Shown here one piece after another: positions 10,206 to 26,660 of a stretch of 64,000 nucleotides of DNA; within the stretch, counting starts at the first letter, position 1, and the number at the start of each line of letters is the position of its first letter. The stretch covers positions 1,054,001 through 1,118,000 of the forward strand of contig NZ_CP094460.1 in NCBI RefSeq assembly GCF_022809715.1, given 5' to 3'. The translations under genes were made by a program, and so were the position numbers. The notes beneath the pieces were generated by a model. It did no database searches. It had not been told where the DNA came from and saw only the letters and a program-made list of their open reading frames with translations. Source of the stretch: Burkholderia pyrrocinia (lineage in GTDB: Bacteria > Pseudomonadota > Gammaproteobacteria > Burkholderiales > Burkholderiaceae).

Positions 10206-10295
10206 GGTGCTCTCCTTTCTCGATCATGGGGGCGCGGGTCGGCGCGAACGGCGGCGGAACGCGGGTTCCTTGCCGCCGGGCATCCCGCCCGCCTC

Positions 10296-10318
10296 AAGAT
10301 GCGTTTCTTATGCATCTT
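10296..10318 (-). promoter_or_regulatory. NsrR-type operator upstream of hcp
   Basis: A 23-bp 11-1-11 inverted repeat. The left arm is AAGATGCGTTT, the centre C, and the right arm TTATGCATCTT, whose complement is AAGATGCATAA. This closely fits the enterobacterial NsrR consensus (AAGATGyATTT and its complement). It lies about 90-115 bp before the hcp start, overlapping the start site predicted from the FNR box. NO-sensitive repression is the likely role. Confidence 0.75.
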
Positions 10319-10350
10319 TTTCATGATGTTTCGGCACGCGTTTCGCCACC

Positions 10351-10364
10351 GTGATGCAGATCAA
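10351..10364 (-). promoter_or_regulatory. FNR/ANR-type box upstream of hcp
   Basis: Read on the minus strand this is TTGAT-CTGC-ATCAC, nine of ten matches to the FNR consensus TTGAT-N4-ATCAA. If it activates from -41.5, transcription would start near 10316, inside the NsrR-like repeat, with a 4/6 -10 match (CATCAT) at about 10323-10328. Confidence 0.65.
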
Positions 10365-10401
10365 GAAACGGGACGCTCGCCGGTGAGGCAACTTGTCGCT
10401 G

Positions 10402-10620
10402 TCACTGCCCTCCGGCTTCGGTCGTGCGTTCGTTTTCGGTATCCGCGCATTCGATGCCCCAGTCGCCGTATCGATACCAGTCGTCGCCGAGCAGTTCGCT
10501 CGGGTGCTGCGTGCGGCTGGAACCGTTGCCGCAACGCATCGCGTGCGCCGCGCAGTAGTTGTCGCATCCCCAGCAGATCCTCTCCGGATGCACGGGGTGC
10601 AGCGGAAATTTCCTGGCCAT
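10402..10620 (-). CDS. DUF3079 domain protein
   Basis: A 72-residue cysteine-rich protein. It opens MARKFPLHPVHPERICWGCD and continues with NYCAAHAMRCGNG, then HPSELLGDDWYRYGDWG, the conserved face of the DUF3079 family. The C-x2-C and C-x7-C arrangement suggests a metal site. A GGGAGGG ribosome site precedes the ATG. The function of the family is unknown to me. It lies upstream of hcp on the same strand, but the hcp promoter elements sit between them, so it is probably transcribed separately. Confidence 0.85.
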   Translation of the reverse strand: MARKFPLHPVHPERICWGCDNYCAAHAMRCGNGSSRTQHPSELLGDDWYRYGDWGIECADTENERTTEAGGQ

Positions 10621-10763
10621 CGCGCGTTGCCCTCCCGGTGTCGTTTCGTTCGCTACCGTTCGACTCTAGTGCACCGATGCACACCGGCAATGCGGCATTC
10701 TTTCGCAGTGGCGGCAGTGCATCGGCCAGGCACGCCGCGCAACGCAATTGGATCGCCTCAAAC

Positions 10764-10788
10764 AAAAAAGCCCGGACATCGTCCGGGC
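10764..10788 (-). terminator. Rho-independent terminator of the catabolic operon
   Basis: GCCCGGAC (10770-10777) and GTCCGGGC (10781-10788) form a perfect 8-bp stem. On the minus strand the stem is followed by six Ts. It lies 33 bp after the stop of the MFS gene and ends the long leftward operon. Confidence 0.9.
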
Positions 10789-10820
10789 ATTCACACATCG
10801 TCCGTTACCGCCGGCCGCGC

Positions 10821-12221
10821 TTACGCTTCGAGCGCCTCCAGCACCTTCCCCTTCGTCTCGATCCCGACGAAGTGCACGGTCACCGCCGCGATCAGCGGCA
10901 CGATGCCGATCAGGTAGAACGCGGGTGCAAGGTTCCCGCCGATGATCGCGTGCGGCACGACCATCGGCGCGACGAACGACGCGATCTTCAGCCACGCGCT
11001 GCCGAGCCCGCAGCCCGACGCGCGGATGCTCGTCGGATACTGTTCGGGCGTATAGACGTACGCGGTAATGAACCCCGACGCCATCAACCCGAGCGACAGC
11101 GAGCAGAAGACCGCGACGACATACACCGACGATGCGTGATAGATGCCCGCAAGCGCCAGCGATAGCGCGCACAGCACGAACGACCACACGATCACCGGCT
11201 TGCGGCCGAGCTTGTCGACGAGCAGCGCCGACGCCAGCGACCCGAGCACGCCCATCACCGAACCGATCACCGCGAGGTTCAGCGCGAGTTGCAGCGGCGC
11301 GTGATAGAAGTTCTTGTAGATCGTCGGCAGCCACGTCGACAGCCCGTACTGGATGAACCCGCAGGTCGCCCACAACGTCGCCACCGCGAGCGTGCGCTTG
11401 CGATACGCGGCGCTGAACAGGTCGCTCATCCTGCGCTTCGGATGCTGGCGCACCATCTCGTCGAACGCGGCCACGTGCGTGACGGGCGGCAGCGCGCCGC
11501 GCACCGACGCTTCGAACACGCCGACCGCGCGCCCGGCTTCCGCGAGCCGCCCGCGCGACGCGAGCCAGCGCGGCGATTCCGGCACGAGGCGCGTGAGCAC
11601 GAGCGACAGGATCAGCGGCAGCCCGCCGACGAAGTACATGATTTCCCAGCCGAACCGCGGCACGAGCCACGCACCGAGCGCCATCGACACCAGCAGGCCG
11701 ATCGGGAACACGATCTCGTACAGCAGCACGAAACGGCCGCGGCCATGCGCGCGCGTGATCTCGTTGATGTACGTCGCGGCGACCGGCAGCTCGCCGCCGA
11801 GCCCGAGCCCCTGCAGGATCCGCAGTAGCACGAACACCTCGAAGGTCGGCGCGAAGCCGCACGCGATGCTCGTGATGCCGATCACGGCCGAGCTCCACGC
11901 AATCGCCTTCACGCGGCCGTGCTTCTCGGCCAGCGCGGGAAACAGGAATGCGCCGATCAGCTGGCCGATTGCGCCGGACGCAATCAGCATGCCGATCTGC
12001 GTCGGCGACAGCCCCCATTTGTGAATCAGCAGCGGCAGCGTCGCCGCGATCGTGATCACGTCGAAGCCGTCGAAGAACGTCGCGGTGCCGATCAGCACGC
12101 GTGCGCGGATCTGCATCGCGTTGCCGGGAAGCCGCTCGAGCCGCGCGATGATCGCGCCGGGCGTGGAGGCGGCAGCTTCCATCGTGGCGCGACCGGCCAC
12201 GACGTTGTCGAAAGTGCTCAT
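10821..12221 (-). CDS. MFS transporter (aromatic acid/proton symporter type)
   Basis: A 466-residue major facilitator with twelve predicted membrane helices. The loop 2-3 motif is present as PALAEKHGRVKAIAW, and LLRILQGLGLGGELPVAATYINE resembles the helix-4/5 motif of the AAHS and sugar-porter families. PESPRWLASRGRL marks the central loop, and VDKLGRKPVIV repeats the loop motif in the second half. It is the last gene of the catabolic operon, 27 bp after the ferredoxin reductase, so it probably imports the operon's substrate. The actual compound is not determinable. Confidence 0.9.
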   Translation of the reverse strand: MSTFDNVVAGRATMEAAASTPGAIIARLERLPGNAMQIRARVLIGTATFFDGFDVITIAATLPLLIHKWGLSPTQIGMLIASGAIGQLIGAFLFPALAEKHGRVKAIAWSSAVIGITSIACGFAPTFEVFVLLRILQGLGLGGELPVAATYINEITRAHGRGRFVLLYEIVFPIGLLVSMALGAWLVPRFGWEIMYFVGGLPLILSLVLTRLVPESPRWLASRGRLAEAGRAVGVFEASVRGALPPVTHVAAFDEMVRQHPKRRMSDLFSAAYRKRTLAVATLWATCGFIQYGLSTWLPTIYKNFYHAPLQLALNLAVIGSVMGVLGSLASALLVDKLGRKPVIVWSFVLCALSLALAGIYHASSVYVVAVFCSLSLGLMASGFITAYVYTPEQYPTSIRASGCGLGSAWLKIASFVAPMVVPHAIIGGNLAPAFYLIGIVPLIAAVTVHFVGIETKGKVLEALEA

Positions 12222-12248
12222 GCGGGGTGTCTCCTGGTCTTTCGCCGG

Positions 12249-13493
12249 TCAGGCAAGCGCTTTAGTAGTGTCTGCCAGGGCTTCCGTATCCACTGCCCGG
12301 CCCTGGTTCATCCACTTGCGCGCGAGCTTCAGCTCACGTGCGTTGTTCACGGCGATGACACCTCTCACATGCCCGTCGCCAAGGAAAAACAGCGTCGCGC
12401 GACGCGCGGCGAGATCGCCGCGCACGACGAGCTGCGCATCGGCCGGCAGATCGCCGAGGATCTGCAGGTTCACGTCGTACTGATCGGACCAGAACCACGG
12501 AATCTCCGCGTACGGCGCGCGCACGCCGAGCACGGCCTTCGCGGCCGCGATCGCCTGGTTCTGCGCGTTGGCCCACGATTCGAGCCGCACGCGCCGCTTC
12601 AGCCAGCCGTTGTGATGATTCGCGACGTCGCCGCACGCGAAGATCGCCGGGTCGCTCGTCGCGCCGAATTCGTCGACGACGATGCCGTCGTCGACGGCCA
12701 GCCCCGCATCGCTCGCGAGCGACGCATTCAGCGCGAGGCCGATGCCGGCCACCGCGAAATCGGCGTCGATCGTCGTGCCGTCGGCGAGCGTCGCGCGCAC
12801 CTTCGATGCATCGCCAGGCTGCGCATCGAGCGACGCGAGCGCCGCGCCGACACGCACGTCGACGCCGTTCGCGCGATGCAGGTCGAGCAGGAAATCCGAC
12901 ACGATCTGCGGCACCGAACGCCCGCACAGCCGCGGCGCGCCTTCGACCACGACCGCCTCGACGCCGAGCTTGCGCGCGGTGGCCGCGACTTCGAGGCCGA
13001 TCCAGCCGCCGCCGATCACGAGCACGCGTTGGCTCGCGCGCAGCTTCTCGCCGAGCGCGGCCGCTTCGTCGAGCGTGCGCAGGTAGTGCAGGTTCGGCGT
13101 CCTCACGATTGCGTCCGGCAGGCGGCGCGACGTGCCGCCGGTCGCGATCACGAGCCGGTCGTATTCGATCTCGCGGCCGCTGGCGGTCGTCACCACGCGG
13201 CGCGCGCGGTCGATCGATGTGGCGCGTTCCGGCTGCCATGCTTCGATATCGAGCGCGTCGAATTCGTCCGGGCGCACGACGCGTACGGTTTCGATATCGG
13301 CGTCGCCGGCCAGCACGGCCTTCGACAACGGCGGACGCTCGTACGGCAGGTGCGGCTCGTCGGCGATCATCACGAGGCGGCCCGTGTAACCTTCCGCGCG
13401 CAACGTCTTCAGCACCCAACCGGCGGCCTGGCCGCCGCCGATCACGACGACCGTGCCGGGCGCGGGCTGCGCGGGCGTATTCGCTTCGGTCAT
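12249..13493 (-). CDS. FAD-dependent ferredoxin reductase of a Rieske oxygenase system
   Basis: A 414-residue pyridine-nucleotide oxidoreductase that would pass NAD(P)H electrons to the Rieske ferredoxin at the other end of the operon. It shows an N-terminal FAD Rossmann motif (VVVIGGGQAAGWVLKTLR), then the PHLPYERPPLSK motif typical of BphA4/PuxA reductases. A second NADH Rossmann motif (VLVIGGGWIGLEVAATARK) and an FAD-contacting IFACGDVAN segment follow. A reductase C-terminal domain (WFWSDQYDVNLQILG) closes it. The ATG at 13493 overlaps the stop of the preceding dioxygenase gene by 4 bp (ATGA), which fixes the start. Confidence 0.93.
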   Translation of the reverse strand: MTEANTPAQPAPGTVVVIGGGQAAGWVLKTLRAEGYTGRLVMIADEPHLPYERPPLSKAVLAGDADIETVRVVRPDEFDALDIEAWQPERATSIDRARRVVTTASGREIEYDRLVIATGGTSRRLPDAIVRTPNLHYLRTLDEAAALGEKLRASQRVLVIGGGWIGLEVAATARKLGVEAVVVEGAPRLCGRSVPQIVSDFLLDLHRANGVDVRVGAALASLDAQPGDASKVRATLADGTTIDADFAVAGIGLALNASLASDAGLAVDDGIVVDEFGATSDPAIFACGDVANHHNGWLKRRVRLESWANAQNQAIAAAKAVLGVRAPYAEIPWFWSDQYDVNLQILGDLPADAQLVVRGDLAARRATLFFLGDGHVRGVIAVNNARELKLARKWMNQGRAVDTEALADTTKALA

Positions 13494-14452
13494 GATTTGC
13501 GCTCCGTCATGAACTTGCCTTCCGGCGCCTTCGCGTTTTTCTGCCGGCGCGTGTTGCCGTCGAGGCCGCCGTCGACGGCCCATTCGGCGAACACGGTCGG
13601 GCCCGGCTCGAATTCGCGCGGCTGCCATTCGGGCGTCAGCACGTCCTCGTCCGCGTAGTACTCGATCAGCGCGCCGGCCGGATTCTGGAAGTACCAGAAG
13701 TACGCGGACGACACCGGGTGACGGCCCGGGCCGAGTTGCGTTTCCCAGCCGCAGCGGTCGATATGCATGCCGCCGCCGAACACTTCGTGGATGTCGCGCA
13801 CCGTGAACGCGACGTGGTTCAGGCCACGCTTTCCGTTCGGCAATGCGAGCAGGAACAGGTCGTGGTGGCCGCCGTGCGGCGCGCAGCGCATGAACGCACC
13901 GCGGTCCGGGTAGCGATCGGACGTCTCGAAGCCGAGCAGTTCGTGATAGAACTTCACCTGTTCGTCGAGGCAGTTCGTGAAGAACACGACATGCCCGACC
14001 TCGACCGGCTCCGCGCGTGCATAGATCGGGCTCGGCTGGTCGACGCGCAGCGTCTGGCCCCACACGTTCGACGGCGAGCCGGTGATGTCGAGTTCGCGCT
14101 TGCGCGTGACTTCGACGCGGATCGCCATTCCGTTCGGGTCGATACAGCCGACCGCGTCGTCTTGCGCGTAGTAACCCGGTTGGCCGGCAAGCTTCGTGCG
14201 CAGCACGTCGAGTTCGCCCTGCGTCGCGACGCCCCACGTCACTTCGCGCAGCGTCGGGCCCGCTTCGAACGCGGGCGGCAGCGCCGGATCGTCGGCGTTG
14301 ACGGCCAGCACGGTGCAGCCGTTCATCGTCTCGAAGCGCGCGTGCGTGTCGTCGTGCGCGACTTCCTTCAGCCCCCAGTCGGCGAAAAAGCGCCGGCAGG
14401 TCGCCAGATCGTCGACGCCGTACGTGATCTGCTCGATTCCCAAAATGCTCAT
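13490..14452 (-). CDS. Two-domain extradiol-type (VOC) dioxygenase
   Basis: A 320-residue vicinal-oxygen-chelate protein with two modules, the layout of type I extradiol ring-cleavage dioxygenases. The three Fe(II) ligands expected of an active enzyme can be placed in the C-terminal module: His 154 (VGHVVFFT), His 213 (LNHVAFTV) and Glu 264 (ALIEYYAD). Their spacing is close to that of BphC. It would cleave a catechol-like ring beside a hydroxyl. Neighbours supply ring hydroxylation, dehydrogenation and a hydrolase. It starts 18 bp after the ALDH stop and overlaps the reductase start. Confidence 0.9.
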   Translation of the reverse strand: MSILGIEQITYGVDDLATCRRFFADWGLKEVAHDDTHARFETMNGCTVLAVNADDPALPPAFEAGPTLREVTWGVATQGELDVLRTKLAGQPGYYAQDDAVGCIDPNGMAIRVEVTRKRELDITGSPSNVWGQTLRVDQPSPIYARAEPVEVGHVVFFTNCLDEQVKFYHELLGFETSDRYPDRGAFMRCAPHGGHHDLFLLALPNGKRGLNHVAFTVRDIHEVFGGGMHIDRCGWETQLGPGRHPVSSAYFWYFQNPAGALIEYYADEDVLTPEWQPREFEPGPTVFAEWAVDGGLDGNTRRQKNAKAPEGKFMTERKS

Positions 14453-14470
14453 TGCGTCATTCCCCTTCGC

Positions 14471-15961
14471 TCAGTTCGCCCACGGCAGCGGCGCGTCGTT
14501 CAAACCCCAGTAGAGGCTCTTCTGCTGCATGTACTCGCGGATGCCGAGGCGCCCCTTCTCGCGCCCCATCCCGCTCTCCTTCCAGCCGGAGAACGGCGTG
14601 GAGATCGAAAACAGCTTGTACGTATTGATCCAGACGGTGCCCGTTTCGAGCGCGCGCGCGATGCGCCACGCACGCTTGTAGTCGCGCGTCCAGATGCCGG
14701 CGGCAAGGCCGAACACGCTGTCGTTCGCCTGCGCGATCAGCGACGCTTCGTCGTCGAACGGCATCGCGACGAGCACAGGCCCGAAGATTTCCTCCTGGCA
14801 GATGCGCGCGCTGTTCGGCAAGCCTTCGAGTATCGTCGGCTGGTAGAAGAAGCCGTGCTCGCGCCCGTCGCCCGACGGCCGCTCGCCGCCGCACAGCAGG
14901 CGGCCGCCTTCTTCCAGGCCGAGCGCGACGTAGCGCTCCACCGATTCGCGGTGCTTCGCGGTGATCAGCGGCCCCATCTGCGTATCGGGCCGCGTCGGGT
15001 CGCCCACGCGCAGCTTGCGGGCGCCCGCAACCAGGCGCTTCATGAATTCGTCGTACACCGCGCGCTGCACGAACAGCCGCGAACCCGCGATGCACGCTTC
15101 GCCCGACGAGCTGAAAATGCCGTACAGCACGCCGTTGACCGCATGATCGAGATCGGCGTCGTCGCACACGATCGTCGGCGACTTGCCGCCGAGTTCGAGC
15201 GACACGGGCATCAGCTTCTCGGCCGCGATGCGCGCGATGCCGCGGCCCACTTCGGTGCCGCCCGTGAACGACACCTTCTTCACCAGCGGATGGCGCACGA
15301 GCACGTCGCCGATCACCGAGCCCTTGCCCGGCAGCACGCTCAGCACGCCCTTCGGCACGCCGGCTTCCTCGCAGATGCGCGCGAGCGCGAGCGACACGAG
15401 CGGCGTGACTTCGGCCGGCTTGAGCACCACCGCGTTGCCGCCGGCAAGTGCCGGCGCGAGCTTCTGCGCGTCGGATGCGATCGGCGAGTTCCATGGTGTG
15501 ATCGCGGCGATCACGCCGATCGGCTCGTACACGCTCATCGTCAGGTAGTCGCCGCGCGACGGCGTCAGTTCTTCGTCGAGCGTTTCGAGGCAGGCCGCGA
15601 AATAGCGGAACGTGTTCGCGGCGCTGGCCACCAGCACGCGCGTCTCGCCGATCGGCTTGCCGTTGTCGCGGCGCTGCAGGTTCGCGAGCGCCTCGTGGCG
15701 CTGCATGATCAGATCCGCGATGCGGTACAGCACCTGCGCGCGCTGGTGTGGCTTCAGCCCGACCCAGTCGGCGCGGCGCCATGCGGCATCGGCGGCTTCG
15801 ACGGCTTCTGCCGCGTCTTCCGCGTTAGCCGTCGACACTTCCATGTTCACCGACTGGTCGGCAGGATAGATGCTGGCGTAAGGCGCGCCACGGCCGCGCC
15901 GCCACTCGCCGCCGATCAGGATGTTGCCGTCGGGTACCAGGCTCGTATCGAAAGGTGTCAT
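14471..15961 (-). CDS. NAD(P)-dependent aldehyde dehydrogenase
   Basis: A 496-residue ALDH-superfamily enzyme oxidising an aldehyde to its acid. Catalytic residues are all present: Asn 158 (TPWNSP), Glu 256 (LELGGKSP) and nucleophile Cys 290 (SSSGEACIAGSRLF). The SFTGGTEVGR cofactor loop is at about 231-240. The closest general types are betaine-aldehyde and 2-hydroxymuconic-semialdehyde dehydrogenases. Within the operon it could oxidise a ring-cleavage semialdehyde or the product of the ThDP enzyme. The gap to the upstream aspartate-dehydrogenase-like gene is 89 bp, the widest in the operon. Confidence 0.95.
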   Translation of the reverse strand: MTPFDTSLVPDGNILIGGEWRRGRGAPYASIYPADQSVNMEVSTANAEDAAEAVEAADAAWRRADWVGLKPHQRAQVLYRIADLIMQRHEALANLQRRDNGKPIGETRVLVASAANTFRYFAACLETLDEELTPSRGDYLTMSVYEPIGVIAAITPWNSPIASDAQKLAPALAGGNAVVLKPAEVTPLVSLALARICEEAGVPKGVLSVLPGKGSVIGDVLVRHPLVKKVSFTGGTEVGRGIARIAAEKLMPVSLELGGKSPTIVCDDADLDHAVNGVLYGIFSSSGEACIAGSRLFVQRAVYDEFMKRLVAGARKLRVGDPTRPDTQMGPLITAKHRESVERYVALGLEEGGRLLCGGERPSGDGREHGFFYQPTILEGLPNSARICQEEIFGPVLVAMPFDDEASLIAQANDSVFGLAAGIWTRDYKRAWRIARALETGTVWINTYKLFSISTPFSGWKESGMGREKGRLGIREYMQQKSLYWGLNDAPLPWAN

Positions 15962-16050
15962 GTCACAAGTCCCACAAATCTGTCTCTGCGCACCCGCCCT
16001 CGCCGTGGCGCGGGCAGACGTTCAATAGTCCGAATCTCTCGAAGCGCCGC

Positions 16051-18518
<2,468 letters not shown>

Positions 18519-18526
<8 letters not shown>

Positions 18527-19316
18527 GGCGTGCAAAGCCTCCAGAAACGTCGATATGGCTGCCCGCCGTGTAGGACGACAGATGCGTTGCGAGATAAAAA
18601 AGTGCCCAGGCGGCCTCGTCGGGCTTGCCGAAGCGATTCAGCGGAATGTTCTTCTTGCGCGCGAGCGCACCCGTCCAGTCTTCCCAGCTTTCGCCGGCTT
18701 GCGCCTGCGCTTCGAAGCGGCGGCGCCACTGGCCCGACTCGACGATGCCGATCAGGATCGAGTTCACGCGGATGCGCTGCGGCGCCAGTTCGGTCGCGAG
18801 CGACTTCACGAGGCTCAGCACGCCCGCCCGCGCCGACGACGTCGCGACCATGTGCGGCTCGGGCTGCAGCGCGAGCAGCGAGTTCACGCAGGTGATCGTC
18901 GGTGCCTGCGCATCGCGCAGCAGCGGCAGGAACGCGCGCGTCGGGCGGATGATGCTGAAGTACTTCAGTTCGAGCTCTTCGCGCCACGCGTCGTCGGTCG
19001 TATCGGCGAAGGTCGACACGCGGCCCTGGCCCGCGTTGTTCACCAGCATGTCGGCACGGCCGAAGCGTGCGGACACCGCTTGCGCGAACGCAGCCACGTC
19101 GGCTTCGTCGAGCACGTTGCAGCGCTCGGCGAGCAGTTGTGCGCCCGGATATTTTTCGCCGAGCATCGCCGCGGCGCGTGCGAGTCGGTCGCTGTCACGG
19201 CCGCAAATCGCGACCGACGCACCGGCCTGCAGGAACCGTTCGGCCGTCGCGAGGCCGATGCCGGACGAACCGCCCGTCACCACCGCAACCTGCCCGGTCA
19301 GATCGATCTGAATCAT
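18519..19316 (-). CDS. SDR-family protein with degenerate catalytic residues
   Basis: A 265-residue short-chain dehydrogenase fold. The NAD(P) loop VVTGGSSGIG (about 12-21) and NNAG (93-96) are normal. Ser 146 (CVNSLLA) is kept, but the Tyr-x3-Lys pair reads Thr 159 and Arg 163 (VATSSARAG). The tetrad Asn position also appears to be Lys 118 (LELKYFS). By family knowledge, loss of Tyr and Lys should remove ordinary oxidoreductase activity, so a binding, regulatory or altered reaction is possible. The C-terminus (YTAGSHIDVSGGFARHV) is intact and the gene shows no decay. It overlaps both neighbours. Confidence 0.9.
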
Positions 19317-20167
19317 CGGAGTCCTAATGCCTTCATAAACGTGTGCTCGTCATCCGAGCGGTAATTGAGCCGCCGCGACAGTTCCGCCGCCGCGCGCTGT
19401 ACCTTGTCGATCAACCCGTCCGCGATCAGCGCCGCGTCGATCTCCGGCCGCGGCACCGTCACCGTGATGCACGCGACGATCTTCTGCGTCTCGTTGCGCA
19501 CCGGCGCCGTGACCACCGAGATGCCGCGCTCGAACGACGAATTGCTGACGCCGTAGCCGCGCAGCGCATCCTCGCGGATCACTTCGTACAACGCATCGAC
19601 CGTCTCCGGCGTCGCGCTCGTCATCCGGTTCAGCGTGCCTTCCGGATACAGCGAGCGCAGCTCCTTCAGCGACAGGTCGCCCATCAGCACGTGGCCGTGA
19701 GTCGTCGCATAGGCGGGCAAGCGGGTGCCGACGTTCACGCGGATCGAGCTGAACACCGGCGACTGGCTCTGCGCCTTCGCGACGAACACGACATCGCGGC
19801 CGTCGCGGATCACGATGTGCGTCGTGAAGCCGGTCGCGTCCCGCAGGCTCTCGATCACCGGCAGGCCGAGATCGGTCAGCTCCAGCGAGCTCAGGTATTC
19901 GAAGCCGAGCCGCAGCACGGCGATGCCGAGCTTGTAGTTGCGATCCTTGTCCGCACGCTCGAGGAAGCCGAGCGATTCGAGCGTCTGCAGCAGACGGAAC
20001 ACCGTCGTGCGCGGAATGCCGAGCCGCTTCGACAACTCCGGCGCGCCGAGCACGGGCTCGCGCGGCGAGAATTCGGCGAGAATCCGCAGCCCGCGTTCGA
20101 GGCCCGGCACCACGTAGCTGGCTTCGGCCTTCCCGTTTTCGGGTTCTTGTTGCAGCGGTTCGCTCAT
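19313..20167 (-). CDS. IclR-family transcriptional regulator inside the operon
   Basis: A 284-residue IclR-type regulator. It has an N-terminal winged helix (VPGLERGLRILAEFSPREPV, LSKRLGIPRTTVFRLLQTLE) and a C-terminal GAF-like effector domain (ATGFTTHIVIRDGRDVVFVAKAQ, RLPAYATTHGHVLMGDL, SFERGISVVTAPVRN). The ATG at 20167 overlaps the hydrolase stop by 4 bp. The protein is very similar to the IclR regulator at 25767-26660, suggesting an old duplication. It probably reads a pathway intermediate and acts on the twin palindromes at 24200 and 24485. Confidence 0.94.
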   Translation of the reverse strand: MSEPLQQEPENGKAEASYVVPGLERGLRILAEFSPREPVLGAPELSKRLGIPRTTVFRLLQTLESLGFLERADKDRNYKLGIAVLRLGFEYLSSLELTDLGLPVIESLRDATGFTTHIVIRDGRDVVFVAKAQSQSPVFSSIRVNVGTRLPAYATTHGHVLMGDLSLKELRSLYPEGTLNRMTSATPETVDALYEVIREDALRGYGVSNSSFERGISVVTAPVRNETQKIVACITVTVPRPEIDAALIADGLIDKVQRAAAELSRRLNYRSDDEHTFMKALGLR

Positions 20168-21060
20168 ACCAGCCCCCACTGCGTATCGCACTGACGGCAG
20201 AACGTGTCGATCAGTGCGGAATAAACGGCCGGCGCTTCCACGTACCCGGCATGACCGGCTTGCGGAATCACCTGCAGCCCGACGTGCGCGGCCGCGGCGA
20301 TCCGCTCGCATGCGGCGGGCGGCGTGATCGCGTCGTTCGCGCCGACGGCCACGGCCGTGCGGCCGCGAAAACCGGCGAGATCGGCCGCGAGATCGGCGTT
20401 CGCGAGCAGATGCGTGGCCTGCGCATAGCCGGCCGGCACGATGCGCGCCATGTTCCAGCGCACCCACGCACGCGCATCCTCGCTCGCGAAACCGGACAGC
20501 ATGTTGCCGCTGCGCTGCTCGGCGAGCCCGGCCGGGCCGAGTTCCGCGAGCATCGCGAGCCGCGCGTCGCGGCGCGATTCGCGCGTTTCGGCGGGGGCGC
20601 TGCCGTAGCCACCGGCAGGCGACACCAGCAGCAGGCCGGCGATCCGCGCGGGCATCACGCGGGCGAGACCGCCCGCGACGATCGCGCCGAGCGAATGCCC
20701 GACCAGCACGCAGCGTTCGATGCCGAGTGCCTCGAGCCACGCGTTCAGCGACGCCGCGTAATCGGCGGCGGCCGGCGACGCGCCGTGCACGGGCGTCGAC
20801 GCGCCATAACCGGGCGCATCCCACGCGAGCACGCGCCGCGATGCGCCGAGCGTGTCGAGCTGGCGCACCCACGATGCGGCACCCGAGCCGATCCCGTGCA
20901 GCAGCACGACGGGCAGCGCGCGGCCCGCATGCTGCGCGCCGGCCTCGCGATAGCCGATCGTGCCCGCCGCGCCGGCCGCGCAGCGCTGCTCGGGAAACTG
21001 CCCGAGCAGCGCTGCGAATGCCGCGGTGCGGTCGCGTTCACGTTTGTCGATGACACTCAT
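20164..21060 (-). CDS. Alpha/beta-fold hydrolase
   Basis: A 298-residue alpha/beta hydrolase, probably the ring-cleavage-product hydrolase of the operon. The oxyanion-hole segment VVLLHGIGSGAASW (about 51-64) and nucleophile elbow GHSLG with Ser 123 are clear. The acid is probably Asp in VGANDAITPP and the base His in PQAGHAGYVEAP. The general likeness is to 2-hydroxymuconate-semialdehyde and related C-C bond hydrolases, but ester hydrolysis cannot be excluded. It starts 18 bp after the cupin stop. Confidence 0.92.
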   Translation of the reverse strand: MSVIDKRERDRTAAFAALLGQFPEQRCAAGAAGTIGYREAGAQHAGRALPVVLLHGIGSGAASWVRQLDTLGASRRVLAWDAPGYGASTPVHGASPAAADYAASLNAWLEALGIERCVLVGHSLGAIVAGGLARVMPARIAGLLLVSPAGGYGSAPAETRESRRDARLAMLAELGPAGLAEQRSGNMLSGFASEDARAWVRWNMARIVPAGYAQATHLLANADLAADLAGFRGRTAVAVGANDAITPPAACERIAAAAHVGLQVIPQAGHAGYVEAPAVYSALIDTFCRQCDTQWGLV

Positions 21061-21078
21061 TGCTTCACCGGCTCCGTC

Positions 21079-21606
21079 TCAACGCTTGATCTTCGCGAGC
21101 GGCGAATCGGGCGGATACGTCGGCGTGATGGGCTTCGGCGAACCGAGCATCACGCACATCAGCGCGTCTTCCTCGCCGATGTTGATTTCCGTGCGATACA
21201 CGCCGGGCGGCACCGAGATCAGGTCGCGCTCGCCGAGGATCGCTTCCCACGTCTCGCCGTCGCGTTCGCAGATCACCTTCATCTTGCCGCGCAGCACGAA
21301 GAAGATTTCTTCCACGTCGATGTGGATGTGGCTCGGGCCGATGTTGCCGGCCGGGATCACCATCGTCGAGAACGTGAAGTTGCCGGCCGGCACCGTGTTG
21401 ACGTCCTTCGCGACGCCCGTGCCGCCGGTGCCGACATAGCGCATCTGCGCACGGCGGTACTTCGGGTCGTAGTCGGCCTGGAACTTCAGTGCGTCCCAGT
21501 CGTAGCGCCGCGTCGCATAGCGCGCCACGCGCCCTTCCATCCAGTCGTTGAAGCTTGCGCCTTCCGGCTGGTCCCACGACTTGCGTTCGAGATCGGCGTC
21601 CGCCAT
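21079..21606 (-). CDS. Cupin-domain protein
   Basis: A 175-residue single-cupin protein. The first cupin motif is clear in PAGNIGPSHIHIDVEEIFF and VLRGKMKVICERDG, with an H-x-H pair and a following Glu as metal ligands. The second motif is weaker (LISVPPGVYRTEINIGEE). Such proteins may be dioxygenases, isomerases or binding proteins. The ATG at 21606 has a GGAGAGG ribosome site; an earlier in-frame ATG at 21621 does not. It lies between an SDR and the hydrolase, so a role on a pathway intermediate is likely. Confidence 0.85.
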   Translation of the reverse strand: MADADLERKSWDQPEGASFNDWMEGRVARYATRRYDWDALKFQADYDPKYRRAQMRYVGTGGTGVAKDVNTVPAGNFTFSTMVIPAGNIGPSHIHIDVEEIFFVLRGKMKVICERDGETWEAILGERDLISVPPGVYRTEINIGEEDALMCVMLGSPKPITPTYPPDSPLAKIKR

Positions 21607-21635
21607 CGTCCTCTCCTTCATTCAGAGTGAAAACA

Positions 21636-22406
21636 TCAATTCATTACGAAGCCGCCGTTCACCGGCAGCAGTTGGCCCGTCACGAAGCGCGCGCCGTCCG
21701 ACAGCAGGAACAGCACGGGGCCCGTCACGTCGTCGGGCACCTGCGCGCGCGTCAGCGCGCGGCCCTGCATGTAGAACGCGTGACGCTCGGCCGGCACGTA
21801 GGCGGTCGCCTCGACTTCGGTCAGCCCCGGCGCGATCGCGTTGACCGTCACGCCGTGCGCGCCGAATTCGCGCGCCTGCGCATGCGTCATCGCGATCACC
21901 GCGCCCTTGCTCGCGACGTACGCGAGCAGCTTCGGCGCGCCCCACAGCGCGGTGTCCGATGCGAGGTTCACGATCGCGCCGCGGCCCGACTTCGCGAGGT
22001 GCGGCAGCGCCGCATTGCTGACGAGCCACACGCCGCGCACGTTCACGTTCATCACGGCGTCCCATGTCGCGACGTCGAGCTCCGTCGACAGCTTGCCGCC
22101 CGAGTTCGTGATCGCCGCGTTGTTGATCAGCGCGTCGATGCCGCCGAGCGCCGCCGCGCCCTGCGCGACGAATGCGTCGACGCTCGCCGGGTCGGCCAGG
22201 TCGAGCGCGAAGAAATGCGCAACGTGGCCGGCTTCCGACAGTTGCGCGGCAAGCGCACGGCCTTCGTCGGCCAGCACGTCGCCGAACGCGACCTGCGCGC
22301 CCGCGGCGACGAGCGCCTTCACGAACGCCGCGCCGAGGCCGCGCGCGCCGCCCGTGACGAGCACGCGGCGCCGCGCGAGCGACACGACCGGTGCGAGCTC
22401 AGCCAT
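21636..22406 (-). CDS. SDR-family oxidoreductase (probable dihydrodiol or alcohol dehydrogenase)
   Basis: A 256-residue classical SDR with every catalytic residue present: cofactor loop VTGGARGLG (18-26), NNAA (95-98), Asn 122, Ser 150 (VNLAS), Tyr 163 and Lys 167 (AYVASKGAV). It would use NAD(P) to oxidise a hydroxyl; after a Rieske oxygenase the natural proposal is a cis-dihydrodiol re-aromatised to a catechol. The ATG at 22406 overlaps the oxygenase stop by 8 bp. It contrasts with the other SDR of this operon, which lacks Tyr and Lys. Confidence 0.93.
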   Translation of the reverse strand: MAELAPVVSLARRRVLVTGGARGLGAAFVKALVAAGAQVAFGDVLADEGRALAAQLSEAGHVAHFFALDLADPASVDAFVAQGAAALGGIDALINNAAITNSGGKLSTELDVATWDAVMNVNVRGVWLVSNAALPHLAKSGRGAIVNLASDTALWGAPKLLAYVASKGAVIAMTHAQAREFGAHGVTVNAIAPGLTEVEATAYVPAERHAFYMQGRALTRAQVPDDVTGPVLFLLSDGARFVTGQLLPVNGGFVMN

Positions 22407-23469
22407 TCGCGGGCTCCGAAGCGGCTTGCGCCGCGCGATGCGCGTCGAGCGCGGACAGGTGTTCCTGCGCACGCTGGCGCAGCATCCGGCGCACGCGCGT
22501 GATGCCGACGTCGTGCTGGTACAGGTATTCGTGATCGCGGGCCTGCGGCGCGAGGCTTTCGAGGACGTAGCGGTCCTGCTCGAGCACGTCCCAGTGCAGC
22601 CCTTCAAGGCGGTTGCGGTACATGAAGCGCCACACGTCGCGCTGCCAGCCGCTGACCTTGCGCGTGCGCCAGAAGTAGACCTGGCAGTTGTCGCCGTCGA
22701 CCGGCGTCGCGAAGCCGATGATCCCGAAGTTGCCGCCCGGGCCGAACTTCTGCTTGTACGGAATCGCGAGGCGCATCCACAGGCAGCCGGTTTCGCCGAG
22801 CTCGACCCAGTCGAAGTTCACGTCGCGCTGGCCGATTTTCTCGAACATCAGGCCAGTTTCCGTCTTGCGCACGCGCATGTCGGCCTGCTTGTCGCCTTCG
22901 GCCATCGAGTGCGACGTCGCATGCAGGTACGCGCCGTGCATCGGGTCCATCACGTTGTCGATCGCGTACTGGTAATTGCACTTCCAGTTCGACACGCACA
23001 GGAAGTGGCCGTACTCGTCGGCGACCAGTTCCTCGGGCAGGTTCAGCGGCGCCGGCTCGCCGTGCGCTTCGTCGCCGAACCACAGGAAGATCGCGCCGGC
23101 CTTCTCTTCGACCGGATAGGACTTCACGCACTTCATGCCTTCGAGCGGACAGTTCGACACGGCCGGCACACGATTGACCGTGCCGCCGCCGTCGACTTCG
23201 ATGCCGTGATACCAGCAGGCAATGCTGCCGCCGAGGTTCCAGCCGAGCGACAGACGCGCGCCGCGGTGCGGGCAGCGATCTTCCAGTGCGTGAACCTTGC
23301 CCTCGTGATCGCGCCACAGCACGATCTGCTCGGACAGGCGCGTGAGGCCGACGGGCGCGTTCGACACCTGCCAGCTCGGCGCGACGGGATACCAGTAGTT
23401 CTTGATGCCGCGGTCGAGATAGTCACGGACCGGGTCGTGTTGGGATGCGTGTTGTGCGGGGGACGTCAT
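22399..23469 (-). CDS. Rieske non-heme iron oxygenase, catalytic subunit
   Basis: A 356-residue ring-hydroxylating oxygenase alpha subunit. The Rieske cluster ligands are Cys 66, His 68, Cys 85 and His 88 (CPHRGARLSLG and CWYHGIEV). The mononuclear iron site is in DNVMDPMHGAYLHATS, with His 178 and His 183 and an upstream Asp 175. Length and a single-subunit layout (no beta subunit gene nearby) resemble the phthalate/vanillate-type group, not the biphenyl-type group. It would hydroxylate or demethylate the operon's substrate, fed by the ferredoxin and reductase at the two ends of the operon. Confidence 0.95.
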   Translation of the reverse strand: MTSPAQHASQHDPVRDYLDRGIKNYWYPVAPSWQVSNAPVGLTRLSEQIVLWRDHEGKVHALEDRCPHRGARLSLGWNLGGSIACWYHGIEVDGGGTVNRVPAVSNCPLEGMKCVKSYPVEEKAGAIFLWFGDEAHGEPAPLNLPEELVADEYGHFLCVSNWKCNYQYAIDNVMDPMHGAYLHATSHSMAEGDKQADMRVRKTETGLMFEKIGQRDVNFDWVELGETGCLWMRLAIPYKQKFGPGGNFGIIGFATPVDGDNCQVYFWRTRKVSGWQRDVWRFMYRNRLEGLHWDVLEQDRYVLESLAPQARDHEYLYQHDVGITRVRRMLRQRAQEHLSALDAHRAAQAASEPANG

Positions 23470-23524
23470 CAGTGTGCTCCGGATGCGGTTGTCGTCGGGT
23501 CGGCGGATCGCGCGCTCGGCGCGG

Positions 23525-23836
23525 TCATTCCGCGAGCGCGGCCATTTCGGCGCGGAAGCGCTCCGGTGTCCACGGCGTGCCGTCCGGTGCGCGGAAGCCG
23601 ATGCGGTTCAGGCCCGCGACGACGTCGTCCAGCTCGGTCGCGCCGGCTTCGAACACGCGTTCGAGCGCATCGCCGAGGTCGTTCTCGTACTGGGTCGGCT
23701 CGGCCTTGCGGTTCTGCCAGATCCGGTTCTCGACCTGACCGGGGATCTCGATCTGCCCCTTGCCGGCGACGTTGTTCGGCTGCGGCGCCACCCACGGCTT
23801 CAGGAAGGGATTGAAGTTGACGGTCGCTTCTTTCAT
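23525..23836 (-). CDS. Small recombinase-like helix-turn-helix protein
   Basis: A 103-residue protein. The C-terminal half (VVAGLNRIGFRAPDGTPWTPERFRAEMAAL) resembles the small HTH found at the end of serine recombinases. The N-terminal half (NFNPFLKPWVAPQPNN) is proline-rich, with no known domain. It has no catalytic serine region, so it is not a recombinase. One base separates it from the ferredoxin stop, and it precedes the oxygenase by 55 bp. A structural or assembly role for the oxygenase is one guess; the function is unknown. Confidence 0.75.
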   Translation of the reverse strand: MKEATVNFNPFLKPWVAPQPNNVAGKGQIEIPGQVENRIWQNRKAEPTQYENDLGDALERVFEAGATELDDVVAGLNRIGFRAPDGTPWTPERFRAEMAALAE

Positions 23837-23837
23837 G

Positions 23838-24155
23838 TCATTCCACCTTGATCTGGATTTCCTCGCCGGCCAGGCGCACCGCGTACTGCTTCAGCGCGCG
23901 TCCGCCCGGACCCTTCAGGCATTCGCCCGTCCTGATGTCGAACACGGCCTCGTGCAGCGGGCATTCGACCGTGCCTTCGTCGACGAACCCCTGCGTCAGC
24001 AGCGCGTACGCATGCGGGCACACGTTCTCGAGCGCATACACGTCGTCGCCGACGCGATAGATCCCGATTTCGACGCCGTCGGTCCGCTTGAACTCGATCG
24101 GCGTGTCTTCCGACAGCGCGCCGGCGTGCCCGGCGCAAATCCATTGTTCAGACAT
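23838..24155 (-). CDS. Rieske-type [2Fe-2S] ferredoxin
   Basis: A 105-residue Rieske ferredoxin, first gene of the operon. Ligands are Cys 46 and His 48 (NVCPHAYALLTQG) and Cys 65 and His 68 (ECPLHEAVFD). The separation of the two pairs and the KGPGGRALKQYAVRL tail are typical of oxygenase ferredoxins such as BphA3. The ATG at 24155 (MSEQWICAG) has an AAGGGTGTGAG ribosome site; a frame extension to 24206 adds 17 uncharacteristic residues. It would shuttle electrons from the reductase (12249-13493) to the oxygenase. Confidence 0.94.
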   Translation of the reverse strand: MSEQWICAGHAGALSEDTPIEFKRTDGVEIGIYRVGDDVYALENVCPHAYALLTQGFVDEGTVECPLHEAVFDIRTGECLKGPGGRALKQYAVRLAGEEIQIKVE

Positions 24156-24199
24156 CTCACACCCTTCCTTCTGATCGACTCTCGGTTTGCTTCTTGTTT

Positions 24200-24215
24200 G
24201 TTCCATATTAGGAAC
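24200..24215. promoter_or_regulatory. Operator palindrome, operon-proximal copy
   Basis: GTTCCATATTAGGAAC: perfect 5-bp arms around six AT bases, 45 bp before the ferredoxin ATG. The reverse complement of the porin-proximal copy differs from it at one base only. Size and placement fit an IclR-family dimer. Confidence 0.75.
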
Positions 24216-24484
24216 ATCAGTTTATGGATGGTGATTATAGGAGCGACTTTCCACGAGTAAAACAAAAAGCTGCACGCCCTAGGGAAAACACTGACCGTTG
24301 GGTCGGCGATCGTCGCCGCCTACCCTATCAAATGTGATTTTTTGTTTTGCGGCGGGGAGTTATGCCCTTTTTGAAAGCTCCACGCATCGCTGCGGCGCAG
24401 CGCTTTCGATCCCATCCGTCCCGAAAAATTTATTTTTGATCACGCGCTTGACGCCCCTATACTCCATTCCATCAGAGGCACATC

Positions 24485-24500
24485 GTTCCTTATATGGAAC
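24485..24500. promoter_or_regulatory. Operator palindrome, porin-proximal copy
   Basis: GTTCCTTATATGGAAC, about 100 bp before the porin ATG. In reverse complement it matches the copy at 24200-24215 at 15 of 16 positions. The pair probably lets one regulator control both operon and porin. Confidence 0.75.
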
Positions 24501-24602
24501 ACACGAAATGCCCATCCGGCGGTGGAACACGCGTGACGGCCGGCCGTCTCCGCGTATGCCGCCACGGCACGTTTTCATCAGGTTGGAGAGTCAGGAGATC
24601 AA

Positions 24603-25682
24603 ATGGTCAAGCATGCGGTAGCAGCAGCAGTCATCGGGATGGGCGCCGCGTCGGGCGCGTGGGCGCAGAGCAGCGTGGTGCTGTACGGCAGCCTGGATGC
24701 GGGCGTCGCGTACGTGAACAACGTCGGCGGCCATGCGAAGTGGGCGATGATCCAGGGCAACACGCAGCCCGATCGGTGGGGCCTGAAAGGCAAGGAAGAC
24801 CTCGGCGACGGCCTGTCGGCGATCTTCCAGCTCGAAAACGGCTTCTATACGAACAACGGCCAGTTCGCGACCGCGAACACGATCTGGAACCGCGCGGCGT
24901 TCGTCGGCCTGAGTTCGGACCGCTACGGCACGCTGACGCTCGGCCGCCAGACGCCGCTGTCGTTCGACTATCTCGATCCGCTCAGCACGGCCTACCTGGC
25001 GCTGAGCTGGTACGCGTTCCACCCCGGCAACATCGACGGGCTCGCCGCGACCGGCAACGTGCCGTACAACAATTCTGTGAAGTACCGCTCGCCGACCTAT
25101 GCGGGCTTCTCGGCCGCGGCGACGCTGGCGCTCGGCAACACGACGAACTTCTCGACCGGCAAGTCGGTCGGCGTCGCGCTGAACTATGCGAACGGGCCGT
25201 TCAAGGCGTCGGCCGTCTACTCGAACGAACACGACCGCTCGATCCTGATCGGCCAGACGGGTATCGCGTCATTCCAGGGGCAGAACACCGCGAACGGCTA
25301 CATAGCGAACAAGGTCGAGAACATCGGCGCGGGCGCGTCGTACCAGTTCGGCGACTTCCTCGTGCACGGCCTCTACACGCGCACGAAGATGCAGTCGAAC
25401 GGCTTTTCGGATACGTTCCAGAGCTATGACGCGGGCGTGAACTACCGCAGCAGCGCGTTCAACACGATCGCGGGCGGCGCGGCGACCACGACGCTGGCCG
25501 GCCGCCGCTGGACGCAGGTCGAGCTCGGCGACATCTACGCGCTGTCGAAGCGCACGCAGCTCTATGCGAACGTGTTGTACGAGCACGGGTCGGGCGGCGC
25601 GAAAGCCGCGTTCTTCACGGCCGGCGTGTCGAGCACCGCGAACCAGGTGATCGTGCTCACCGGGATCCACCACTCGTTCTGA
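24603..25682 (+). CDS. Gram-negative trimeric porin
   Basis: A 359-residue outer-membrane porin of the Burkholderia/Neisseria type. It has a cleavable signal (to AWA at about residue 21), then the first strand QSSVVLYGSLDAGVAYVNN. The eyelet-containing segment WGLKGKEDLGDGLSAIFQLE and FVGLSSDRYGTLTLGRQ are also present. The last strand ends in Phe (VLTGIHHSF), the BAM recognition signal. An AGGAG ribosome site precedes the ATG. It is divergent from the catabolic operon and shares a palindrome with it, so it probably admits that operon's substrate. Confidence 0.94.
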   Translation: MVKHAVAAAVIGMGAASGAWAQSSVVLYGSLDAGVAYVNNVGGHAKWAMIQGNTQPDRWGLKGKEDLGDGLSAIFQLENGFYTNNGQFATANTIWNRAAFVGLSSDRYGTLTLGRQTPLSFDYLDPLSTAYLALSWYAFHPGNIDGLAATGNVPYNNSVKYRSPTYAGFSAAATLALGNTTNFSTGKSVGVALNYANGPFKASAVYSNEHDRSILIGQTGIASFQGQNTANGYIANKVENIGAGASYQFGDFLVHGLYTRTKMQSNGFSDTFQSYDAGVNYRSSAFNTIAGGAATTTLAGRRWTQVELGDIYALSKRTQLYANVLYEHGSGGAKAAFFTAGVSSTANQVIVLTGIHHSF

Positions 25683-25745: not shown

Positions 25746-25766
25746 CGATGCCGGGCGCGTCGCGAG

Positions 25767-26660
25767 TCAGAACATCGCGACCTTGTGGCGCGCGTGCGCA
25801 AACGTCGGGTCGCTTTCGAGCGGACGATAGTTCAGGCGCTGCGACAGGTCGACCGCCGCACCGCATACGGCTTCGACGAGCCGCTCCTTCTCGCCGGCCT
25901 CGCCGATCTCCGAACGCGGCACCGTCGCGGTGATCGCCGCGACGATCGAACCCGAATGATCGCGCACGGGCGCGGTCACGGCCGAGATGCCGCTTTCGAA
26001 CGCCGCCTCGCTGACCGCATAGCCGAGCCGCGCGTACTGCCGCACGCGTTCGTACAGTTCGTCGACGGTGCCCGGCGTGCGCTCGGTGAACTGCTCGAGC
26101 CGCTTTTCCGGATAGAGCTGGCGCAGCGCGTCGCGCGTCAGGTCGCCCATCAGCACGTGGCCGTGCACGGTCGCATGCGCGGGCAGGCGCGTACCGACGT
26201 GCACCTTCACCGAACCGAACATCGACGCATTGCTCTGCGCCTTCGCGACGAACACGACGTCGCGCTGGTCGCGGATCAGCAGGTGCGTCGAGAAGCCGGT
26301 GGAATCGCGCAGCCGTTCGAGCACCGGCGCGCCGAGATCGGTCAGCTCGAGCGAGTTCAGGTATTCGAAGCCGAGCCGCAGCACGCCGACGCCGAGCCGG
26401 AAATGGCGGTCGCCGTTCACGCGTTCGAGAAACCCGAGCGCCTCGAGCGTCTGCAGCAGGCGGAACGTGGTCGTGCGCGGAATGCCGATGCGCTTCGACA
26501 GCTCGGGCGCGCCGAGCACGGGCTCGCGCGCCGAGAATTCGGCGAGAATCCGCAGTCCGCGCTCGAGCCCCGGCACCAGATAGGACGAAGCGCCGCCGGA
26601 CGATTCGTCATCGCCGGCAGCGGCAGGATCGGGGGCGTCGCTCATCGTTGTCTTGACCAT
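25767..26660 (-). CDS. IclR-family transcriptional regulator, second copy
   Basis: A 297-residue IclR regulator nearly parallel in sequence to the one at 19313-20167. It has the same winged-helix block (VPGLERGLRILAEFSAREPV, LSKRIGIPRTTTFRLLQTLE) and the same effector-domain blocks (STGFSTHLLIRDQRDVVFVAKAQ, RLPAHATVHGHVLMGDL, SAVTAPVRD). The start could be 26660 (MVKTTMSD) or 26645 (MSDAPDP); neither has a strong ribosome site. It flanks the porin, so control of the porin or of the whole cluster is likely. With similar DNA-reading helices, the two copies may share operators. Confidence 0.93.
   Translation of the reverse strand: MVKTTMSDAPDPAAAGDDESSGGASSYLVPGLERGLRILAEFSAREPVLGAPELSKRIGIPRTTTFRLLQTLEALGFLERVNGDRHFRLGVGVLRLGFEYLNSLELTDLGAPVLERLRDSTGFSTHLLIRDQRDVVFVAKAQSNASMFGSVKVHVGTRLPAHATVHGHVLMGDLTRDALRQLYPEKRLEQFTERTPGTVDELYERVRQYARLGYAVSEAAFESGISAVTAPVRDHSGSIVAAITATVPRSEIGEAGEKERLVEAVCGAAVDLSQRLNYRPLESDPTFAHARHKVAMF

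Follow-up and report, generated by a model that had tools for sequence, protein, structure and literature searches.

A widespread 14-gene operon of Burkholderia pyrrocinia as a candidate for the quinoline pathway of kynurenate degradation

Introduction

Kynurenic acid (4-hydroxyquinoline-2-carboxylate) is a side product of tryptophan catabolism. Its breakdown through a quinoline pathway in Pseudomonas was reportedly described by the Hayaishi group around 1961–1963; the enzymes are numbered EC 1.14.99.2, 1.3.1.18, and 1.13.11.10, and to our knowledge the pathway is known from enzymology only. A kynurenate degradation pathway in Pseudomonas fluorescens is stated in a passage of PMC5610271 that cites Taniuchi and Hayaishi 1963. 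No assignment of genes to the quinoline pathway was found in searches of the open-access literature, with a prior assignment in subscription papers being possible. Here, we describe a 14-gene operon in a 64,000-nucleotide stretch of the Burkholderia pyrrocinia genome (hereafter, the window; positions 1054001–1118000 of contig C2, in a genome of 7.69 Mb and three contigs). We argue that a somewhat better than even case can be made, from gene families and active sites, that this operon degrades kynurenic acid via the quinoline pathway.

Several described systems resemble the operon in part. Like the quinoline pathway, it is predicted to supply the needed enzyme classes in the needed order (dioxygenase, dihydrodiol dehydrogenase, extradiol enzyme, side-chain reduction, decarboxylation, aldehyde oxidation); unlike that pathway, its predicted end products are aspartate and glutarate. 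With the AndA anthranilate and HcaA phenylpropionate dioxygenases it shares a separate Rieske ferredoxin and an FAD ferredoxin reductase of the same types, but it has a single alpha subunit of the VanA/DdmC/CarAa type, no beta-subunit gene among its 14 genes, and an HTH_62 protein instead. The N-terminal half of the oxygenase is homologous, at 72 bits, to carbazole 1,9a-dioxygenase (CarAa/CarAc/CarAd), a system that also includes a ferredoxin, a reductase, an extradiol enzyme, and a hydrolase. The operon differs from the carbazole system in its extradiol enzyme, which is of the two-domain vicinal oxygen chelate (VOC) type, and in having a thiamine diphosphate (ThDP)-dependent enzyme, an aldehyde dehydrogenase (ALDH), and an L-aspartate dehydrogenase (AspDH) in place of the carbazole meta pathway. 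An indole-acetate (iac) type operon was also considered and rejected, its gene set being different. The AspDHs characterized from K. pneumoniae, Delftia, P. aeruginosa, and R. eutropha belong to the same family and carry the same activity name; the available portions of PMC5554190 present AspDH as an amino-acid production tool and mention no ring-cleavage operon. In the searchable literature no close orthology of the whole operon to a characterized pathway was found, the characterized relatives being these AspDHs and the protein of PDB entry 3lf1. An earlier note on this DNA, made from the sequence alone, had been unable to match the gene combination to any known pathway; the combination is indeed unusual, but we propose the kynurenate quinoline pathway as its match.

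If the proposal is true, a pathway that enzymologists have known for some 60 years would gain its genes, and the bacterial destruction of kynurenic acid, an animal receptor ligand, would become directly testable. Uses would also be found for three poorly understood proteins, namely the HTH_62 protein, a short-chain dehydrogenase/reductase (SDR) that lacks the catalytic tyrosine, and a seemingly stray AspDH. The gene set occurs in Burkholderia, Klebsiella, Acinetobacter, and soil and marine bacteria, and thus bears on the turnover of tryptophan metabolites in hosts and soils.

Results

Organization and conservation of the operon

Fourteen minus-strand open reading frames (ORFs) span positions 10821–24155 of the window, and each matches the family for which it is named (ORF calls and family profile searches; Table 1), in agreement with the earlier note. 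A single transcription unit is plausible: neighboring genes share 4 or 8 bp at six of the 13 junctions and are separated by 1–89 bp at the remaining seven (these figures use SDR1 start 22406 and IclR start 20167, both set by eye). The overlap sizes given earlier are thus correct, but the statement that most junctions overlap was slightly overstated.

The operon is real and widespread. Gene order was compared across Burkholderiaceae, as had been suggested, in the best 80 of the 525 relatives found in the collection scan, all of which belong to this family. In 73 of the 80 loci, all 14 genes are present with order and direction unchanged; contig ends truncate six of the remaining seven, and the major facilitator superfamily (MFS) gene is absent from the last (L071). 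Such preservation implies that the order is not due to chance.

Carriage of the ThDP gene is patchy: it was found in 9 of 300 genomes in a sample of the order and 13 of 398 in a sample of the phylum and, when different queries were used at a limit of 1e-180, in 18 of 200 genomes of one family and 9 of 248 of another. A sample of the class at a limit of 1e-150 gave one carrier among 369 genomes, the B. pyrrocinia genome itself; this sample was thin or the limit too strict, because relatives do occur on plasmid records of Klebsiella, Acinetobacter, and Vibrio. Most of the gene set, rearranged, is present on the Klebsiella and Acinetobacter plasmid records, with one AspDH in each cluster. Rearranged sets were also found on plasmid records of Paracoccus, Nitratireductor, Pseudosulfitobacter, and Novosphingobium, and the Vibrio record holds a set without the Rieske part. 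An unannotated homologous cluster on a Streptomyces chartreusis plasmid (L134; ALDH 60% and Rieske 51–52% identity) suggests transfer between phyla.

Table 1. Operon genes, flanking genes, and palindromes, with positions in the window
Feature	Position	Strand	Match or remark
Rieske ferredoxin, oxygenase electron carrier	23838..24155	-	PF00355 66.6 bits, AndAb-like
HTH_62 protein ("recombinase-like"), probable Rieske oxygenase partner	23525..23836	-	PF20552 104.8 bits
Rieske oxygenase alpha subunit, proposed kynurenate 7,8-dioxygenase	22399..23469	-	PF00355 + PF19112 VanA_C
SDR1, classical SDR, proposed 7,8-dihydrodiol dehydrogenase	21636..22406	-	PF13561/PF00106
Cupin	21079..21606	-	PF07883; weak PDB match to quercetinase QueD, E 1.2e-4; may act in ring opening or isomerization
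Alpha/beta hydrolase, proposed C-C or lactam hydrolase	20164..21060	-	PF12697
IclR regulator within operon	19313..20167	-	PF01614/PF09339
SDR2, non-canonical SDR, proposed side-chain C=C reductase	18519..19316	-	NF005468 (PRK07062) 480.7 bits, cut-off 266
ThDP-dependent enzyme, proposed 2-oxo acid decarboxylase	16859..18526	-	NF005470 (PRK07064) 976.7 bits, cut-off 495
AspDH, proposed iminosuccinate reductase at pathway end	16051..16866	-	NF009826 564.8 bits, cut-off 479
ALDH, proposed 2'-formylethyl-dihydroxypicolinate dehydrogenase	14471..15961	-	PF00171 577.5 bits
Type I extradiol dioxygenase (VOC), proposed 7,8-dihydroxykynurenate 8,8a-dioxygenase	13490..14452	-	PF00903
Ferredoxin-NAD(+) reductase	12249..13493	-	HcaD/AndAa-like, 388 and 366 bits, under both cut-offs
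MFS transporter, aromatic acid:H+ symporter type	10821..12221	-	TIGR00895 221.7 bits, under cut-off
Divergent porin, probable outer-membrane channel of system	24603..25682	+	PF13609 160.9 bits
Second IclR regulator	25767..26660	-	Present in 76/80 related loci
Operator-like palindrome GTTCC-N6-GGAAC	24200..24215		45 bp upstream of ferredoxin start
Second GTTCC-N6-GGAAC palindrome	24485..24500		Between operon and divergent porin

Active sites and the proposed pathway

Conservation of catalytic residues was counted among relatives that align over at least 75% of the query with more than 30–45% identity; many of these are closely related to one another. The ligands C66/H68/C85/H88 and the 2-His-1-Asp site H178/H183/D299 of the Rieske oxygenase are kept in 118/118 relatives; the CxH/CxxH motif, this site, the ferredoxin, and the FAD reductase together make up a three-component Rieske system. 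SDR1 has the Ser...Tyr-x3-Lys arrangement of a classical SDR, with S151/Y164/K168 kept in 121/121 relatives. The iron ligands of the extradiol dioxygenase, whose positions were assigned by motif and not by structure, are conserved as H154 and H213 in 108 and E264 in all of 109 relatives. In the hydrolase, S123 is present in 125 and D243 and H270 in all of 126 relatives, while E52 of the ThDP enzyme is kept in 164/164 and H224 of AspDH, presumably the catalytic histidine, in 146/146. The complete Rieske system, the dihydrodiol-type SDR, the hydrolase, and the dioxygenase with three iron ligands that had been recognized earlier are thus present both by family and by conserved catalytic residues. 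Going only by families and active-site residues, a single unit provides for dioxygenation of a ring, dehydrogenation of the dihydrodiol, and cleavage by an extradiol enzyme, and the genes for these reactions are joined there by those for a 2-oxo acid decarboxylase and an ALDH suitable for the side chain, identified by family only.

With the observed gene content, order, and conserved residues as a framework and every substrate deduced, the pathway would run as follows. Ferredoxin reductase, ferredoxin, and Rieske oxygenase would put O2 on C7–C8 of kynurenate (step 1), and SDR1 would convert the cis-dihydrodiol to 7,8-dihydroxykynurenate (step 2). The extradiol enzyme would then cleave the benzene ring between C8 and C8a to yield a pyridone that bears CH=CH-CO-COOH as its side chain (step 3), the double bond of which would be reduced by SDR2 (step 4). 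Decarboxylation of the 2-oxo acid by the ThDP enzyme would give an aldehyde (step 5), to be oxidized by ALDH to 5-(2-carboxyethyl)-4,6-dihydroxypicolinate (step 6). The intermediates of steps 3–6 are those of KEGG map00380, in which reduction of the chain is followed by decarboxylation, giving an aldehyde, and then by oxidation to an acid. The last two steps are our own deduction: hydrolase and cupin would open and split the pyridone (step 7), with the balance C9H9NO6 + 2 H2O = glutarate (C5H8O4) + iminosuccinate (C4H5NO4), and AspDH, of which iminosuccinate is an intermediate, would reduce the latter to L-aspartate (step 8). We know of no other ring-cleavage pathway in which a ThDP decarboxylase and an ALDH follow extradiol cleavage, and kynurenate is favored because side-chain reduction, decarboxylation, and oxidation would give SDR2, the ThDP enzyme, and ALDH an exact use. 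RidA, found in 8 of the 51 diverse loci described below, fits an imine or enamine intermediate and was therefore counted for kynurenate.

The earlier note had considered another order, in which an amino acid is oxidized to a 2-oxo acid, decarboxylated, and oxidized to an acid before or after ring attack; it was weighed here in the form in which an aromatic amino acid passes through the AspDH-like protein, the ThDP enzyme, and ALDH before ring attack. The passage from 2-oxo acid through aldehyde to acid is supported by gene content (ThDP enzyme, ALDH), and the adjacency of the AspDH, ThDP, and ALDH genes would speak for such a series, but the first reaction fares badly. In the results available from PMC5554190, the AspDHs of Klebsiella and Delftia act on pyruvate or 2-oxoglutarate at only 2–4% of their oxaloacetate activity; both are aspartate-specific, and the reported substrates include no aromatic amino acids. 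The Klebsiella enzyme of that report is likely the one in the Klebsiella cluster L125. Given this specificity, and with H224 invariant in the relatives compared, oxidation of an amino acid to the 2-oxo acid is very improbable. Moreover, AspDH, ALDH, and the ThDP enzyme accompany two different entry oxygenases (see below) and so look like a shared lower part. It is a better order that extradiol cleavage of a bicyclic ring yields the 2-oxo acid and AspDH acts at the end; specificity for oxaloacetate and aspartate matches the release of iminosuccinate and therefore supports the kynurenate pathway.

Two entry modules

A table of 51 diverse loci was assembled. It was anchored on the ThDP gene, so the presence of this gene there is uninformative, and some rows come from near relatives. 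Exceptions to the anchoring are L133 (found through HTH_62), L134 and L135 (through Rieske), L138 (the other half of L135), and L140 (a full copy neighboring L120). The Rieske oxygenase is present in 40 of the 51 loci and is accompanied by HTH_62 in 39 and by SDR1 in 37 of these. Five of the 11 Rieske-negative rows were used; L111, L187, L188, and L190, which lie at contig ends, were dropped, as were the fragment L138 and L184, whose stretch has no extradiol gene either. In the five clusters used (L110, L113, L114, L123, and L167), SDR1 and HTH_62 are missing as well, and each contains an FAD monooxygenase, the family of which was identified in L114 as the 3-hydroxybenzoate 6-monooxygenase type. 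They keep the hydrolase, extradiol, SDR2, ThDP, and ALDH genes, and four of them keep AspDH. Ten of the 40 Rieske clusters contain this monooxygenase too.

The simplest reading of this pattern is that Rieske oxygenase with SDR1, on the one hand, and the flavin enzyme, on the other, make one catechol from two related substrates, and that extradiol enzyme, SDR2, ThDP enzyme, ALDH, AspDH, and hydrolase form a common lower pathway. The flavin-type clusters look as if a monohydroxylated relative, e.g., xanthurenate, joined at the same catechol. Electron transfer is exchangeable among loci, being served by ferredoxin and reductase, by a VanB-type reductase, or by an FAD protein and flavodoxin; in some of the 51 loci no electron-transfer partner was recognized.

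By its association with the oxygenase gene, with which it appears to travel, HTH_62 is a probable partner of the Rieske oxygenase, and a role as part of a recombinase is unlikely. In its structural model (pLDDT 72, pTM 0.50), three helices form a confident C-terminal domain, preceded by an N-terminus that is conserved but modeled with low confidence. A fold search with the model returned nothing at E <= 0.001, and a sequence search of the PDB gave no match. A small cluster in a genome of the same genus (L133; genome G1024, contig C1) contains HTH_62, a Rieske oxygenase (54%), RidA, a VanB-type reductase, ABC transporter genes, and a small protein, without ThDP, ALDH, or AspDH genes. The small protein, of about 110 amino acids (L135 11438–11770, L133 9741–10091), adjoins the HTH_62 and Rieske genes, occurs in 9 of the 51 loci, and has no Pfam match.

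The side-chain reductase and the hydrolase

SDR2 lacks the classical Ser...Tyr-x3-Lys arrangement. The position of the tyrosine is occupied by threonine (Thr159) in 141 of 142 relatives and by serine in the remaining one, and that of the lysine by arginine (Arg163) in all 142. In L184, L185, L186, and L189, SDR2 is missing or matches at only 24–28%, and another SDR, also without Tyr-x3-Lys, stands beside the cluster. The shared lack of Tyr-x3-Lys in SDR2 and its distant stand-in argues against ordinary alcohol oxidation. 2,4-Dienoyl-CoA reductases are SDRs with a shifted tyrosine that reduce C=C bonds, and, by this analogy, a role of SDR2 as side-chain C=C reductase is plausible. The closest solved relative is the structural-genomics entry 3lf1 (E 7.5e-104), deposited as Q9HYA2, which we take to be a P. 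aeruginosa protein.

PDB matches of the hydrolase include esterases, RutD, HsaD, and BphD. The last two are what a conventional meta-cleavage pathway for a monocyclic aromatic acid would call for: Rieske system, dihydrodiol-type SDR, extradiol enzyme, and hydrolase would be its upper part, the hydrolase would split the ring-fission product, and ThDP enzyme, ALDH, and AspDH would handle side products. We consider such a pathway improbable. The 14 products (the search was confined to these) include no 2-hydroxypentadienoate hydratase, 4-hydroxy-2-oxovalerate aldolase, acylating acetaldehyde dehydrogenase, or tautomerase, and the ThDP enzyme and AspDH, the latter present in 44 of the 51 diverse loci, would be left unexplained.

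Links to tryptophan and quinolines, and points against kynurenate

In genome G1433, a cluster consisting of genes for an extradiol enzyme, a porin-like ORF, the FAD monooxygenase, a dihydrodipicolinate synthase (DHDPS)-family protein, HTH_62, Rieske oxygenase, and reductase lies two bases from a convergent ORF for tryptophan 2,3-dioxygenase (TDO; 430 bits, cut-off 390.7), the next ORF past the cluster. Among 200 genomes of one family, TDO is present in 17 of 18 carriers of the ThDP gene vs. 112 of 182 non-carriers (Fisher p 0.004, uncorrected for relatedness or genome size). Some DHDPS-superfamily members remove pyruvate from benzylidenepyruvates; by analogy, the DHDPS-family gene of G1433 (L191 4652–5548; PF00701) would suit a bicyclic ring-fission product. 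A long ORF of the same genome (L192 123–3599, minus strand) has a start that, by eye only, looks Cas9-like.

Plasmid pNK84 of Caballeronia NK8 carries the full 14-gene set, about 8 kb further on a partial copy (ferredoxin, HTH_62, Rieske, ThDP, and extradiol genes), and then a three-subunit molybdenum hydroxylase. Molybdenum hydroxylases of this type act on quinolines among other substrates. The plasmid (L140, full copy; L120, partial copy) also carries an SDR2-family gene, a chemotaxis protein, and a porin, and another full copy is present on pNK83 (L119).

These surroundings also bear on the possibility that the enzymology is as proposed but that another bicyclic N-heteroaromatic acid (xanthurenate, quinaldate, a hydroxyquinoline, or another fused pyridine or pyrrole acid) is the true inducer and substrate, kynurenate being at most an intermediate. 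The NK8 molybdenum hydroxylase beside the second copy could convert quinaldate to kynurenate, a reaction for which such enzymes exist; clusters with the FAD monooxygenase suggest a family of related substrates; and large plasmids of soil bacteria are among the carriers. However, the association with TDO points to kynurenine-derived acids, and, with no further hydroxylase in the window operon, the substrate must already suit dihydroxylation. We therefore regard another bicyclic acid as unlikely, though it is the alternative to be taken most seriously.

Several observations weigh against kynurenate as the substrate. TDO adjoins the cluster, convergently, in one genome only of the 176 loci scanned (L017–L192), and, for the 16 further carriers that have TDO, the copy listed lies more than 1 Mb away or on another contig. 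Kynureninase is absent from all fetched cluster stretches of these 176 loci; the only other TDO/kynureninase match was the kynurenine locus of the B. pyrrocinia genome itself, fetched for comparison, which is on a different contig from the operon. The large subunit of the NK8 molybdenum enzyme scores 437.6 bits with 4-hydroxybenzoyl-CoA reductase vs. 267.6 with the group that includes quinoline 2-oxidoreductase. The lower pathway is not uniform either: cupin, of two types and with no pathway step of its own, is found in 40 of the 51 loci, SDR2 in 41 (three of these at only 24–28% identity), and AspDH is absent, among others, from the flavin-type cluster L167. Tracer work of 1961 reportedly speaks in its title of glutamate formation, and aspartate and glutarate reach glutamate only indirectly. 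Finally, we take PA3504–PA3511 of P. aeruginosa to be part of such a cluster. According to the portion of PMC4938989 that was available, P. aeruginosa accumulates kynurenic acid upon kynU deletion, which is compatible with kynurenate degradation only if its cluster lacks the Rieske part.

With these points taken into account, we still favor kynurenate. A broader reading that joins all parts is possible, and we hold it more tentatively: operons of this type would be the missing genetic basis of kynurenate and xanthurenate mineralization across Pseudomonadota, including opportunistic pathogens, with two interchangeable entry modules (Rieske oxygenase, SDR1, and HTH_62, or flavin monooxygenase), a new class of side-chain reductases derived from SDRs by loss of Tyr and Lys, HTH_62 as a new kind of oxygenase partner, and pyridine nitrogen passing to aspartate via iminosuccinate.

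Regulation and expression

Two GTTCC-N6-GGAAC palindromes are present between the operon and the porin, compared with a mean of 0.03 in shuffled windows, and the whole 7.69 Mb genome has seven such sites vs. three for the pattern read backwards. Among the 80 related loci, the palindrome lies at most 500 bp upstream of the ferredoxin gene in all 77 that include this gene, and 20 of these loci have it twice. A looser pattern was looked for in 18 further loci: it is found upstream of ferredoxin in L119 and in three places in L135, and there is none before the cluster in most others. The natural reading of the palindrome is that of a candidate IclR operator. An AT-rich operator-like site (G000:C2:1858629) was rejected; it is located at a LysR gene and has no visible link to the operon.

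Expression data for Acinetobacter baumannii were compared with its cluster (L126), A1S numbers being matched by annotation order and not by sequence. In the available part of PMC4328036, a promoter region upstream of A1S_0945 (ferredoxin) was found via a lux insertion in A1S_0947, annotated as vanillate O-demethylase oxygenase subunit. A1S_0945, 0946, and 0956 appear in the accessible listing of PMC3758355 as expressed in biofilm cells only, and, in the data available from PMC5757984, A1S_0956–0958 (AspDH, betaine-aldehyde dehydrogenase, and acetolactate synthase by annotation) are raised on mucin, with values of 2.2–2.4. These partial records fit one transcription unit.

Neighboring genes and related fragments

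The porin also adjoins the Caballeronia operon. An Rfam scan of window positions 8000–27000 gave no match at gathering scores. A 19.7-kb record of Burkholderia ambifaria labeled as a plasmid (L136; NZ_CP066767) holds extradiol, reductase, MFS, and hybrid-cluster fragments in pieces, with 89–99% identity to the window, and has the look of a piece of chromosome that was assembled as a plasmid. In the window itself, a hybrid-cluster protein of the hydroxylamine reductase family is encoded at 8538–10205 on the minus strand (775 bits, cut-off 367), and its gene is also visible in 5 of the 80 related loci. Downstream of it lies an ORF (7502–8569, minus strand) whose start, by eye, resembles a 2Fe-2S ferredoxin-type reductase.

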